Program-made: the position numbers and the translations under genes
In this document: positions 17,841-61,216 of the stretch, piece after piece
How positions within the stretch are numbered: the first letter of the stretch is position 1
Layout: each line of letters opens with the position of its first letter
The notes under the pieces: model-generated
Seen by the model: the letters and a program-made list of their open reading frames with translations, nothing else
The model's database searches: none
What the model was told of the DNA's origin: nothing
NCBI RefSeq assembly: GCF_023921805.1
Contig: NZ_CP074197.1
Location: 1,488,001-1,552,000 of the forward strand
Reading direction: 5' to 3'
Source of the DNA: Ruminococcus sp. FMBCY1
GTDB taxonomy: Bacteria; Bacillota; Clostridia; Oscillospirales; Acutalibacteraceae
DNA length: 64,000 nt

Positions 17841-17916
17841 TAAATTATGGTTTAACAAATTGATTTGCCAATCAATTATAAAAGTTTGGTAAATCATTTT
17901 GCCAAACCATAAATTA
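17841..17916. repeat. Mini inverted-repeat element (76 bp)
   Basis: A single palindrome: left arm TAAATTATGGTTTAACAAAT, right arm ending TTGCCAAACCATAAATTA, with roughly 27 of 31 positions pairing around AATCAATTATAAAAG. The arms match the outer ends of the long elements at 11926 and 29653. The flanking GGTTCTGTTTAAAATGTT (from 17810) matches, in reverse, the AACATTTAAAACAGAACC tail seen beside other copies. The rest of the 320-bp gap between asnB and the next gene holds only the asnB promoter and a terminator. Confidence 0.65.
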
Positions 17917-56970: not shown

Positions 56971-57012
56971 TGACAATTCATTGCTCTGAACGCAATATAA
57001 TAATTGTCGGGA
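56971..57012 (-). other. Extended hairpin in the MBOAT gene leader
   Basis: On the minus strand CCCGACAATT pairs with AATTGTCAGG, and inside it ATTGC pairs with GCAAT around GTTCAGA. It lies about 65 bp before the MBOAT start. It could be a leader structure or a second terminator after the M23 gene; no T-run follows. Confidence 0.35.
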
Positions 57013-57030
57013 TTTGCACACCATAAAATA

Positions 57031-57052
57031 CCCTCACCGCTTTTGGTGAGGG
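57031..57052 (-). terminator. Terminator after the M23 gene
   Basis: CCCTCACC, 6-nt loop, GGTGAGGG, followed on the minus strand by TATTTTAT. Confidence 0.65.
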
Positions 57053-57138
57053 CGATTACTGTTTATTTTACATTATTTTTATGGTACAGTCAATGAAATT
57101 AAAGCAAATATAATTGCTGTCCTCGAATTTTGGCATTA

Positions 57139-58104
57139 TCAACTAATTTCTTTAAAAGAAAACTCTCTTTTAAACTCTTTTGTTTCACTGTTTCTGACGG
57201 TTGAGCTTTTATGCTGTTCAAGGGTACTTATGAGTGCGTACATATCCACCCATATTTCGTTGTCGCTTTCCTTTTGGCTTTCGTCAAAAACAAGCTCAAG
57301 CCCTATATGGAGATGGCTTTCGGTAATTCCGTTTATGTTTTCGGTATCGCTGTAACCTGTTCTGCCCACATAGCCTATAACATCGCCTGCCGTAACCGTA
57401 TCGCCCTCCTTGAGGTTCTCAGCATAGGGGCGGTTCTGCCGCAAATGCGCATAATACCAATACCTTTTATTGTCAAGCGAGCGTATGCCGATTCGCCAAC
57501 CGCCGTATCTGTTCCAGCCGAGGCACTCGACCTTGCCCGATTCAACGGCTATAACGGGAGTACCGACTGCCGACATCAGGTCGTGTCCCAAATGCGGTCT
57601 TGTGTATCCGAATGTCCGCTTTGCACCGAAGTCATCGTAATGCGAATACGGAAAAGTCTTTGCAATCGGCGAAAACCACCGCACTCCGTAGTCCTGCTTT
57701 ATACTGCCGTCAGACTGTTCTTCCTCAAAATTTCCAACCATACCGCTGAGCACTGCCGTATATACATTATAATAATATGTATAGTATTTCATATCCTTGG
57801 TAAGCTCGGCTATTGTTTTGCCGTCTTTCAGCTTTTCGCAGAGGTTATCCATATCGCTTTGCTTGTATTTTGAAAAATCGCCGCCGTATTTTGCGCCGAG
57901 GTACGATAAAATTTCTATATAATTCAGTTTGGTATCTTCCGACTGTGAAGAAACATCGTAACTGACGGCTTTTTGCAGAGCGTCTGCCGTAACATTAAAT
58001 TCCGCATACTTTATAAAATTATCGGTTTCCTTTCCGCCGACAATCGTCATAACCGAACAGGCAAGCACAAAAGCAGAAATAAGCAATAAAATAATCCGTT
58101 TCAT
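57139..58104 (-). CDS. M23-family metallopeptidase (LytM domain), exported
   Basis: A 321-residue exported protein with an N-terminal signal or membrane anchor (about residues 3-22) and a C-terminal LytM domain. The zinc ligands are in RPHLGHDLMS (HxxxD) and ESHLHIGLEL (HxH), and the strand GTPVIAVESGKVECLGWN is typical. It would cut peptidoglycan cross-links, or be a SpoIIQ-like non-enzymatic partner; both metal motifs are intact. Its start codon is inside a very strong hairpin. It lies between two DHHW genes. Confidence 0.88.
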   Translation of the reverse strand: MKRIILLLISAFVLACSVMTIVGGKETDNFIKYAEFNVTADALQKAVSYDVSSQSEDTKLNYIEILSYLGAKYGGDFSKYKQSDMDNLCEKLKDGKTIAELTKDMKYYTYYYNVYTAVLSGMVGNFEEEQSDGSIKQDYGVRWFSPIAKTFPYSHYDDFGAKRTFGYTRPHLGHDLMSAVGTPVIAVESGKVECLGWNRYGGWRIGIRSLDNKRYWYYAHLRQNRPYAENLKEGDTVTAGDVIGYVGRTGYSDTENINGITESHLHIGLELVFDESQKESDNEIWVDMYALISTLEQHKSSTVRNSETKEFKREFSFKEIS

Positions 58105-58138
58105 ATATAATCACCCGATTATATATATGAAACGGATT
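58093..58138 (-). promoter_or_regulatory. Hairpin enclosing the start codon and ribosome site of the M23 gene
   Basis: A near-perfect inverted repeat of 20 and 22 nt (AATCCGTTTCATATATAATC at 58093-58112; its partner at 58117-58138 has one extra AT) around ACCC. In the mRNA the loop holds the GGGT of the ribosome site and the 3' arm holds ATGAAACGGATT, the first four codons. Translation should be blocked unless the stem opens. Confidence 0.75.
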
Positions 58139-58143
58139 TCAAA

Positions 58144-58842
58144 TTAATTTCTCATTAAATGTATTGCGGTTTCGGCTTTTTCTATAATTCTTAAATCGTT
58201 GTCATAGGTGCAAAGTTTTCGTGCCTGCTGGAGGTCAACCCAGATGTAACTGTCGATTTCTTCCTCCTGAATTTTTACGCTGTCGGTAAACGCCTGTGCA
58301 AGGAAGAACACTACCCGCTTGCGAATTTTGCCGAACGGGCAATACTCGCTGATTTCTCTAAATCCCTTTGCAAGGGTAACATCAAGCCCTGTTTCCTCTT
58401 TGATTTCTCTCAAAGCGGTTTCCTGCTCGTTTTCGTCGTTTTCTATATGACCTTTCGGAAAGCTCCAATATCTGCCGTTGCTGTTCTTCACAAGCAATAC
58501 CTTTGTATTCTGCTTGTTGCGGTAAAAAATCACCGCACCGCAGGATTTTTCGTAAAGACAGCTTATACTCTCCACTTTTACATTACGCAAGCGGGCAAGT
58601 ATTTTTTTAAGCTCCGGCTCGTAATAAATCTCTCCGTACGGAGCGACTATGAATTTATCGCCCTTGAGTCCCTCAAATTTGGCAACGGCAATAACCACAC
58701 CGTCAAAGTATTCTTCAACTCTGTCCTTGCGTGTAACAAGATAAGCGCTTTTGTTTGAAAAGGAATTGCCCGAAACATAGGCGGAGAAAAAACCTTTTCC
58801 GACCTTGCCAAACACATTTACTCTTACATTTTCCGCAAGCAT
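58144..58842 (-). CDS. Nudix hydrolase with N-terminal PF-unknown domain
   Basis: A 232-residue protein. The Nudix half (about residues 100-225) has a full Nudix box, GHIENDENEQETALREIKEE then TGL, of the Ap4A-hydrolase/MutT type, preceded by GRYWSFPKGH. The first 95 residues (MLAENVRVNVFGKVGKGFFS onward) form a separate domain with PYGEIYYEPELKK that I do not recognise with confidence. It sits between the second DHHW gene and M23, so a role in nucleotide or activated-precursor turnover is possible. The ribosome site AAGGAGG precedes the ATG. Confidence 0.8.
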   Translation of the reverse strand: MLAENVRVNVFGKVGKGFFSAYVSGNSFSNKSAYLVTRKDRVEEYFDGVVIAVAKFEGLKGDKFIVAPYGEIYYEPELKKILARLRNVKVESISCLYEKSCGAVIFYRNKQNTKVLLVKNSNGRYWSFPKGHIENDENEQETALREIKEETGLDVTLAKGFREISEYCPFGKIRKRVVFFLAQAFTDSVKIQEEEIDSYIWVDLQQARKLCTYDNDLRIIEKAETAIHLMRN

Positions 58843-58882
58843 TGCCGCTGCCTCCTTTCTTAATTCAAATAAAAATCAACAA

Positions 58883-60178
58883 TTAATTCAGTAAGCCGTC
58901 CATACTGTCGAGCTGTACCTGAGTATTTGCACTCATAATGCCGTTGAGGTAAAGAACCTCTGTAATGCCGTTCTGCTTGCAGTAGTCTGCAAGATTCTGT
59001 CCGAAATATCTGAAATCTATAATATGAACTTCGGAATAATTATTTGTAAGATACGGTGAGAATGCGTTGCCGTAGCTTTCTTTGACAACGGCAATCTTCT
59101 TGCCCGTACCGTTTTCGGAATCGGAATGTAAAACCGTGAGCGGATTGTCGCCCATAATAAATAAACTGTATGTATTTGAACCCGCCTCCGCATACTGATA
59201 ATAAGGCGAATCGTAGTTTGATACAGTGCCGTTTGAATCCGTAATATCCATTGTAACATTATAAGGGAATGTCCAATAGCTTACGGTATCGGTTGTAAGT
59301 CCGTCATTTGTGTTTGCAAACGAACCCGTAAAGCCCTCAATTTTATTTTCCGTGCAAGTGCTTAAATCAAGAACAGCCTGATTTGTTGCCTCCGCAAACG
59401 CTGTATATGCGTAATATGCGCCAAGTCCTGTCCAGTGGTGGTCGGAATTGTAATAAACATATTCGTTGCAGTGCTCGGCAATTTTGTTGTAAGCATTTAT
59501 CGGTGTTACAGAGCTGTTTAGCTTTGAATAAATCTGCTTGATGTTCTCTGCCTGTGAATCCGACGGAGCGGAGCTGTTTTTAAGTCTTTGCGGAAGTCCC
59601 ATTTCCGTATGGTTGGGAACAACCATATTGTAAACCTTAATTCCGCTTAACTTCTGCTGATAGCTGTTGATTGAATCGGCATAAAGCTGTGCTCTGTATT
59701 CATCGCCGCCGAAAAGCTCATATGCGGCGCCGTTCCAGATGTAAGCGTTTGTACCCATATATCCTGTTGTGTTATCGTCCTTAATATTAGGCGTAACAAA
59801 ATTAAGTGCCGCTGCGTTTGCTGCTTGTGTTGCGGGTTGAGTGGTTGCTGCCTGTGTAGGCGGTATTGTTTTATCGGAATTATTGTCAACTTTTTTGTCC
59901 GAACCGGTACAGGCTCTGAACATTGAAGAAATTATTGTGATTATAAGTATTAATATAAGTATTCCAACACTTACAATAATAATGCGGTTTCTAAGTCTTC
60001 TGCTGAATCTTTTTCTTTTAGGCGGCTTGCGATGCACATTATTTCGATTATTAGGTACAGGCCCTCTGCCGTTTTGCGGCGGTCTGTTCATCGGCTGACG
60101 GTATTCTCTCCTGTATTGACTGCGTTGAGCCGCAACTCTGTCGTCATCAAAATAGTCTAAGTTGTATTTATCTGCCAT
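58883..60178 (-). CDS. DHHW-family protein with cytoplasmic basic N-terminus
   Basis: A 431-residue protein. A charged, Arg/Pro/Asn-rich cytoplasmic start (RREYRQPMNRPPQNGRG) is followed by one membrane helix (IIIVSVGILILILIITIISS, about residues 66-85), a Thr/Gln/Ala linker, and an SGNH-like domain with NSDHHWTGLGAYYAY (about residue 247) and VVKESYGNAFSPYL. It probably takes part in surface-polymer acylation with the MBOAT protein. The start ATG at 60176-60178 follows GGGAGAG; an upstream TTG frame is rejected. It is first in the cluster. Confidence 0.82.
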   Translation of the reverse strand: MADKYNLDYFDDDRVAAQRSQYRREYRQPMNRPPQNGRGPVPNNRNNVHRKPPKRKRFSRRLRNRIIIVSVGILILILIITIISSMFRACTGSDKKVDNNSDKTIPPTQAATTQPATQAANAAALNFVTPNIKDDNTTGYMGTNAYIWNGAAYELFGGDEYRAQLYADSINSYQQKLSGIKVYNMVVPNHTEMGLPQRLKNSSAPSDSQAENIKQIYSKLNSSVTPINAYNKIAEHCNEYVYYNSDHHWTGLGAYYAYTAFAEATNQAVLDLSTCTENKIEGFTGSFANTNDGLTTDTVSYWTFPYNVTMDITDSNGTVSNYDSPYYQYAEAGSNTYSLFIMGDNPLTVLHSDSENGTGKKIAVVKESYGNAFSPYLTNNYSEVHIIDFRYFGQNLADYCKQNGITEVLYLNGIMSANTQVQLDSMDGLLN

Positions 60179-60264
60179 ATATACACTCTCCCGTCTTAAA
60201 AAAAGCAACAGATAATTAAACGCTGTTTCCTCATTATATCATTATATTAATTAAAGCATATTTT

Positions 60265-60293
60265 ATTATACAACATATTTAGTCTAAAAACAA
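60265..60293 (-). promoter_or_regulatory. Promoter of the DHHW/Nudix/M23 unit
   Basis: On the minus strand TTGTTT (60288-60293), a 17-bp spacer, TATAAT (60265-60270), 87 bp before the DHHW start. Confidence 0.65.
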
Positions 60294-60373
60294 TACAATT
60301 TTTCATTTTTCGAGTAAATCCGCAAATGCGGCAAATATTTACATCCATAAGCAAAACAGATTTTAAAATAGAG

Positions 60374-60402
60374 TTGAAACAAAAGGAAAAATACGATATA
60401 AT
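60374..60402 (+). promoter_or_regulatory. Promoter of coaX
   Basis: TTGAAA, a 17-bp spacer, TATAAT, ending 49 bp before the coaX ATG. Confidence 0.75.
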
Positions 60403-60451
60403 TTAGAGTTGCAGGATGTTTTTTCCAAGCAATTACAATGAGGTGATATTT

Positions 60452-61216
60452 ATGTTGCTATGCACGGATGTGGGCAATACAAATATAAAATTTGCACTTT
60501 ACAAAGGTGAAAAACTGCTTATGAAGTTAAGATTTTCCACTAATCGCAGTAAAACCGCCGACGATTACGCAGTTGACCTTTATACTATATTCAGAATAAA
60601 CAATGTTGATGTAAACGAAATTAACGGCTCAATAATCTCAAGCGTAGTACCCATAGTAACCGACCTGCTCGGAAAAGCTATTTTTACTGTGGCAAATGTA
60701 GAAAGTTTGGTTGTCGGACCGGGCATTAAAACAGGTCTTGACATTCGCCTTGACAACCCCGGCGCCGTAGGCTCGGACATTGTATGTATGTGCGTTGCTT
60801 TAAAAGAACAGTACCCCTGCCCGGTAATCGTAATCGGAATGGGCACTGCCACAACCATTCTTTATATGAACGAGCACAAGGCTTATTGCGGCGGAGTTAT
60901 TTTGCCGGGTGTGCAGATTTCACTTGACGCACTTACCGCAAAATGCGCACTTTTGCCGTCGGTCAGTTTTTCTGCGCCGCAAAAGGCAATCGGAACAAAT
61001 ACTGCCGACTGTATACGCAGCGGCATAATTTACGGCAATGCCGCAATGATTGACGGCGTAATCGACCGCTTTGAAGCGGAAACGGGTCACAAATGCACTC
61101 TTGTTGCAACAGGCGGATTTGCACCGCACATTGTAAAGTTCTGCAAAAAAGACATTACCGTAAACGACGACCTTGTACTCGAGGGATTAAGACTTATATA
61201 CGAAAAGAATCTGTAA
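60452..61216 (+). CDS. coaX: Type III pantothenate kinase CoaX
   Basis: Phosphorylates pantothenate, the first committed step from vitamin to CoA, by the feedback-insensitive type III enzyme. It has 254 residues, with MLLCTDVGNTNIKFALYKGE (phosphate 1), ISSVVP, GPGIKTGLDIRLDNPGAVGSD and MGTATTILYMN (phosphate 2), and a third phosphate-loop region CTLVATGGFAPHI. The ATG at 60452 follows GAGGTGAT. It is a single gene with promoter and terminator, and it complements the panBCD/coaBC operon. Confidence 0.96.
   Translation: MLLCTDVGNTNIKFALYKGEKLLMKLRFSTNRSKTADDYAVDLYTIFRINNVDVNEINGSIISSVVPIVTDLLGKAIFTVANVESLVVGPGIKTGLDIRLDNPGAVGSDIVCMCVALKEQYPCPVIVIGMGTATTILYMNEHKAYCGGVILPGVQISLDALTAKCALLPSVSFSAPQKAIGTNTADCIRSGIIYGNAAMIDGVIDRFEAETGHKCTLVATGGFAPHIVKFCKKDITVNDDLVLEGLRLIYEKNL

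Follow-up and report, generated by a model that had tools for sequence, protein, structure and literature searches.

A palindrome over the start site of an M23 peptidase gene of Ruminococcus sp. FMBCY1 as a candidate lock on read-through translation

In Ruminococcus sp. FMBCY1, the start codon of an M23 peptidase gene lies within a long palindrome immediately behind the stop codon of a Nudix hydrolase gene. What does such a structure do to the expression of the peptidase, and how did it arise at this place? We analysed the locus in a window of 64,000 nucleotides (the whole stretch of DNA considered, whose coordinates are used below) and compared it with loci of the same genus. The features of the locus are collected in Table 1.

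Table 1. Genes and signals around the start of the M23 peptidase gene (window coordinates)
Feature	Position	Strand	Remarks
DHHW-family gene upstream of Nudix	58883..60208	minus	Pfam PF14286
Nudix hydrolase gene, 232 aa	58144..58842	minus	Pfam PF00293, 69.1 bits; ends 5 bases from the stem
Probable degenerate -35 element ATTAAT	58143..58148	minus	13 nt before the -10 element; overlaps the Nudix stop codon TAA
Left (5') arm	58117..58138, 22 nt	minus	AATCCGTTTCATATATATAATC; derived part, absent from relatives
Probable -10 element CATATATATAA, sigma-E type	58119..58129	minus, within the left arm	positional homology with CATA of relatives; spoIIIAA
Loop GGGT	58113..58116	minus	opening bases of GGGTGAT (58116-58110), the Shine-Dalgarno sequence
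Right (3') arm	58093..58112, 20 nt	minus	GATTATATATGAAACGGATT; contains ATG and codons 2-4; start-region bases common with the relative L193/L071
ATG start codon of M23 peptidase	58102..58104	minus	
U-rich tract ATTTTATTGC	58083..58092	minus	immediately 3' of the stem; the hairpin is thus somewhat terminator-like
M23 peptidase gene, 321 aa	57139..58104	minus	Pfam PF01551, 62.2 bits
Terminator-like hairpin 3' of the M23 gene	57030..57053	minus	

The start-site hairpin and its predicted fold

The palindrome occupies 46 bases of the minus (mRNA) strand, 58138-58093. The outer 17 bp of the hairpin are perfect, and a 2-nt TA bulge is found on the left-arm side. The stem has five G-C pairs overall, three of them close to the base. 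The Shine-Dalgarno sequence is split by the hairpin, so that GGGT is the unpaired loop and GAT belongs to the stem, as do the ATG and codons 2-4. The preliminary description had the coordinates and the pairing of this 20/22-nt inverted repeat with its 4-nt loop right, and the distance of five bases between the Nudix stop codon and the stem is borne out as well (Nudix ends at 58144, the stem begins at 58138). Its statement that the ribosome site and the first codons are locked holds for GAT, the ATG and codons 2-4, but not for GGGT, which stays unpaired.

The predicted fold of the 101-nt start region has an energy of -26.7 kcal/mol (z -4.63), and none of 200 shuffled sequences was equally stable; this supports the earlier claim that the start codon is sequestered in the Nudix-M23 RNA. 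In the model of the long Nudix-M23 RNA, every base of the ATG is paired with a probability of at least 0.96 at temperatures up to 60 C. A search for Rfam families in the region 57000-61000 gave ten matches up to E 5, none of which reached its gathering score.

The hairpin is far beyond chance expectation. Sampling 464 kb of the same genome yielded 42 perfect inverted repeats with arms no shorter than 12 bp and loops of 3-30, and the M23 palindrome, at 17 bp, is tied for the second longest of them; a first-order Markov null of five times this length produced eight repeats, the longest of 15 bp. Twenty-eight of the 42, the M23 palindrome included, lie at most 80 nt downstream of a called stop codon. 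A simple script called 725 starts in 864 kb of this genome, and at two of them, those of the M23 gene and of a nuclease gene, a perfect arm of more than 10 bp covers the Shine-Dalgarno sequence or start and has its partner upstream. The symmetric control, in which partners were sought downstream, gave 14, 14 and 12 bp as its largest arms, and the starts concerned seem to be miscalled.

The nuclease-like gene (241 aa) has an 18-bp perfect hairpin on the minus strand that ends right before its ATG (L107:18937-18983, corresponding to G000:C1:258937-258983). The Shine-Dalgarno sequence GAGGT is in the right arm, and the -10 box of a TTGAAA-17-TATAAT pattern is in the left arm. This hairpin was rejected as a conserved sibling of the M23 structure, as none of the 12 orthologues with a called start (13 were fetched) has such an arm; one orthologue, L183, has about ten pairs over the start with a longer loop. 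Another hairpin covers the ribosome site of a 197-aa gene on the plus strand of locus L133 (start at 1015). We take this gene to resemble an AbiEi-type antitoxin, and the hairpin may be its autoregulatory operator. In locus L125, the ribosome site CTTTAGGAGG of a 190-aa membrane-protein-like gene pairs with the upstream sequence TCTCCTAAAG (minus strand, start at about 2150, position 17851 of the reverse strand).

Related loci and the origin of the palindrome

A search of 161 genomes of the genus with the M23 protein gave matches with E of 1e-60 or better in 22 genomes, the own genome included. The best identity is 73%, and three strains of Ruminococcus bromii are among the close relatives. 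The comparison set consisted of 21 other distinct M23 start regions, including one partial locus (L013). None of these 21 same-genus orthologues has a perfect arm of more than 10 bp over the M23 start. Three have arms of 10 bp (TTTTTCATAT/ATATGAAAAA), one has 8 bp, and the others have at most 6 bp. When arms were swapped, the own pair (-21.9 kcal/mol) was matched in stability by none of 22 swaps; at the 11 other M23 promoters tested, the native pair was equalled or surpassed by between 3 and 18 of the 22 swaps. The hairpin being absent from the relatives and their native arms having no clear edge over swapped ones, there is no sign of selection on it, and as far as the compared genomes go it is a property of its own lineage. 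A conserved RNA switch is rejected on these two grounds. The preliminary description had named conservation of the pairing in related genomes as a check on its reading; all 21 same-genus orthologues lack the pairing. The case that it had named as refuting, a relative with the gene pair and no pairing potential, was not found either, as none of these orthologues shows the Nudix-M23 pair.

According to the family searches, Nudix and M23 are flanked here by DHHW and MBOAT genes. Nudix was found in 33 of the 35 other same-genus genomes searched, and the DHHW motif precedes it in 22 of the 24 related loci fetched; the Nudix gene was located by motif in 15 of these 24 loci, nine being missed. Of 16 other loci examined, 11 have the MBOAT start motif behind M23 within the stretch that was fetched. 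On the other hand, the Nudix signature was found upstream of M23 in none of the 21 other distinct loci (fetched stretch, up to 1.5 kb). The DHHW-Nudix and M23-MBOAT blocks are thus apart in the relatives and meet only here among the loci compared, and the palindrome is positioned exactly at their junction. The co-directional ORF upstream is 39 nt away from the M23 ATG here, against 74-1221 nt in the 21 relatives, and a strict scan found a terminator match inside that gap in ten of the 21. Terminator-like hairpins were also seen by eye downstream of Nudix in loci L147, L149, L153 and L154. As the joint is present in a single genome, an assembly error at this point may also be considered.

One relative (L193/L071) contains the start-region bases ATGAAACGGATTAT (the same 14 bases) and lacks the left arm; hence the right arm is the older one, to which the left arm was added. 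This comparison suggests how the palindrome could have been formed. A rearrangement would have brought the DHHW-Nudix block, with its 3' end, up against the promoter region of the M23-MBOAT block, and would have deleted the upstream spacing of M23 together with a terminator of the kind found in many relatives. At the joint, the M23 start region would have been copied in reverse complement to a place upstream of itself, probably via template switching, with CATATA and TATATG, half-repeats that are partly found in relatives, as conceivable seeds. The original palindrome may have been a perfect one of 20 bp, with the 2-nt bulge added by a later slip of TA. Template switching is described as able to make perfect stems in one event (PMC8794818, available part).

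A candidate sigma-E-type promoter in the left arm

The upstream regions of the M23 genes contain CATA 22-27 nt upstream of the start in 14 of the 21 relatives, and lack it in seven. In 12 of those 14 it has the form CATAnnnnTTA, mostly followed by CGGTGAT. Among 12 distinct M23 promoters, a set from which the own locus and two near-identical rows were dropped, ATA is located exactly 19 nt upstream of CATA in eight, and any other offset (4 to 24) occurs in at most three; the spacer between the two elements differs among the relatives. The same arrangement is seen upstream of spoIIIAA, a classical sigma-E target. Counting plain CATA at all offsets places ATA 19 nt before it in 17 of 30 loci, among them 14 of the 21 loci within the genus, with at most four at any other offset from 13 to 25. 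If the full CATAnnnnTTA is required, ATA is at offset 19 in 12 of the 30 loci and at each other offset in none. By sequence likeness, the CATA elements of the M23 relatives thus look like a sigma-E-type promoter. For C. difficile, the available part of PMC3789822 describes like -10 elements for sigma-E and sigma-K, gives CATATAAT for the latter, and assigns ATA to the -35 element of sigma-E. The Ruminococcus bromii group is able to sporulate, according to the title of PMC5814915. In the genome considered, a SpoIVA match is above the cut-off, and the best sigma-E match (343.4 bits) is just below its cut-off of 348.6. Its spoIIIAA has CTTTTT instead of ATA at the -35 place, and no CATA[C/T]A was found in the 1.5 kb fetched upstream of its spoIVA.

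At the M23 starts in L003-L006, L186 and L190-L194, the -10 element is so near the Shine-Dalgarno sequence that the RNA would begin there, with a leader of about 10 nt. The starts in L002, L013, L031, L184, L185 and L188 have no CATA nearby and share the sequence TCATATTATGCT or TCATATGATGCT about 55-60 nt upstream, perhaps another promoter type.

The left arm of the palindrome sits where the relatives have this promoter-like element, so the likely logic of the locus differs from the earlier reading. The position of the candidate promoter is homologous to that of the relatives' element, but the own copy, ATTAAT with CATATATATAA, is weak. The identical ATTAAT hexamer occupies the -35 place in L197. 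A sigma-E matrix built from 11 relatives, of which three are near-identical, gives the own putative promoter 13.1 against 20.0-26.8 in the relatives, whose scores are inflated by their use in training. This matrix was rejected as a genome-wide finder, being barely above the reversed control in 464 kb (118 versus 97 sites scoring above 9, and 23 versus 9 above 13), and so it is position that argues for the own candidate. The own copy is perhaps weaker because the joint cut into the promoter. The predicted start of transcription is on the Shine-Dalgarno sequence, and the leader would be unusually short. In the model, the start site is not stably folded in RNAs beginning at positions 14-19, counting from the C of CATA (-2.3 to -1.1 kcal/mol).

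These data suggest two fates of the M23 message. In RNA reading through from Nudix, the palindrome would fold and shut the ATG, and it may double as a weak terminator. RNA initiated at the own sigma-E-type promoter would have its 5' end close to the loop and, missing the left arm, would be accessible to ribosomes. The net effect would be an M23 gene that is silent in the growth-phase read-through mRNA and expressed solely from its own promoter, which is probably one active in sporulation. We assign a probability of about 0.45 to this reading as a whole, that is, to a rearrangement combined with a start-site lock on Nudix read-through and an open own-promoter RNA, in the logic of phage T4 gene e. 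Here the activity of the promoter in this genome, the occurrence of read-through and the importance of the lock are inferred rather than observed. It is rather unlikely, though conceivable, that the fusion and the read-through insulator arose together, the start region having been copied backwards into its own promoter with the result that read-through is locked and the sporulation RNA is free.

If the lock reading is right, a single mutation at a rearrangement joint can create a start-codon lock that shields a stage-specific gene against a neighbour newly placed upstream; many gene fusions raise this problem. The M23 peptidase of the Ruminococcus bromii group then becomes a candidate mother-cell gene. 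The model predicts a silent and a translated M23 RNA, distinguished by nothing but the left arm.

Competing explanations and known systems

Two other explanations are serious rivals to the start-site lock. In the foremost of them, the inverted repeat is a neutral mutational scar, left by template switching at the rearrangement, unselected and perhaps harmless or mildly damaging. Its occurrence in one genome, its exact position at the joint, the derived left arm and the lack of a clear advantage of native pairing in the relatives all agree with this, as does the fate of the other long start-site hairpin of the genome, that of the nuclease gene, which is likewise missing in the 12 orthologues with a called start; and perfect stems can be produced by template switching in a single event (PMC8794818, as far as available). 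Yet silencing of read-through would follow physically from the hairpin, selected or not, and with the promoter in the arm the gene's own transcript would be spared. We consider a mere scar possible and hold it with some doubt. The hairpin might also be a new intrinsic terminator of the DHHW-Nudix operon that replaced the one lost at the joint, the hiding of the start codon being secondary. The stem is followed by ATTTTATT, the terminator-like hairpins behind Nudix in several relatives fit this explanation, and so does the frequent position of long inverted repeats shortly past stop codons. However, the AT-rich stem with its few G-C pairs and the interrupted U-tract speak against such a role, and the terminator scan did not pick up the hairpin; a replacement terminator thus seems improbable.

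The remaining explanations are weaker still. According to the preliminary description, ribosomes finishing Nudix would open the stem, and M23 would then be made in proportion to Nudix. The short distance between the Nudix stop codon and the stem makes such opening possible. However, masking 10-12 nt past the stop codon leaves -12.8 to -8.7 kcal/mol in the model, with the ATG still covered, the Nudix stop and the M23 start are 39 nt apart, and the gene pair occurs in none of the 21 related loci. The effect of terminating ribosomes would therefore be weak, and translational coupling is quite improbable. A regulator could instead bind the palindrome as a DNA operator over promoter and start. The palindrome does overlap the probable promoter, and start-site palindromes are present at the AbiEi-like and nuclease genes of the same genome, but the palindrome is not conserved in the orthologues, and a genome search for the 21-nt core with up to three mismatches returned the core itself as the sole match. 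With no second copy, a repeated element or regulon operator is rejected, and an operator at this site is very improbable. An RNA thermometer, the other proposal of the preliminary description, agrees with the location of the hairpin over the start codon and with little else: in the model the stem is closed up to 60 C, where the unpaired probability of the ATG is at most 0.04 per base, and the best Rfam thermometer match, with 25.8 bits, is far below its gathering score of 125. This explanation is rejected in silico, and we give it practically no weight.

Several known systems share parts of the proposed arrangement. In IS10 and IS50, the transposase mRNA is inhibited by fold-back. As proposed for M23, RNA reading through from outside hides the start of a downstream gene; the M23 locus differs in being a single chromosomal gene, with no insertion sequence noticed. 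The origin of the palindrome has its counterpart in the RNA hairpins formed by template switching, as presented in the accessible part of PMC8794818, where a reverse-complement arm beside its template likewise yields a perfect stem, whereas the M23 palindrome is at a gene joint and covers a start codon and a promoter. The sigma-E promoters of endospore formers (PMC3789822) combine an ATA -35 with a CATA-type -10, a pair also seen at spoIIIAA in this genus; compared with them, the M23 candidate is degenerate, and the distance from its -10 element to the Shine-Dalgarno sequence is very short.

The closest likeness is to gene e of phage T4. Its long early RNA forms an inhibitory structure that lowers lysozyme 100-fold, and late promoters just upstream of the ribosome site give RNA without the 5' part (PMC3014915, available sections). 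A similar promoter-in-hairpin arrangement is described for I-TevI (PMC2988022, available sections), and segB and Aeh1 mobE likewise have a late promoter within an RBS-sequestering hairpin (PMC3014915, PMC2988022). Among the papers listed in literature searches no cellular example of such control was recognised, which is no proof of absence. The M23 locus differs from the T4 type in several respects: it belongs to a bacterial chromosome, its sigma-E-type promoter is only inferred, the hairpin is found in one genome and is not conserved, the Shine-Dalgarno sequence is partly in the loop, and the arrangement is known from sequence alone. It resembles the T4 type in that a stable hairpin is predicted over the start region in the long RNA, so that RNA initiated upstream would hide the start; a candidate stage-specific promoter, well placed by comparison with the relatives but weak in its own sequence, may also lie in the DNA of the 5' arm. 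If fusion and insulator did arise together, T4-type promoter-in-hairpin control would have originated here in one step, on a bacterial chromosome, and the nuclease gene of the same genome, with TTGAAA-17-TATAAT reaching into its left arm, would be a second, independent case.
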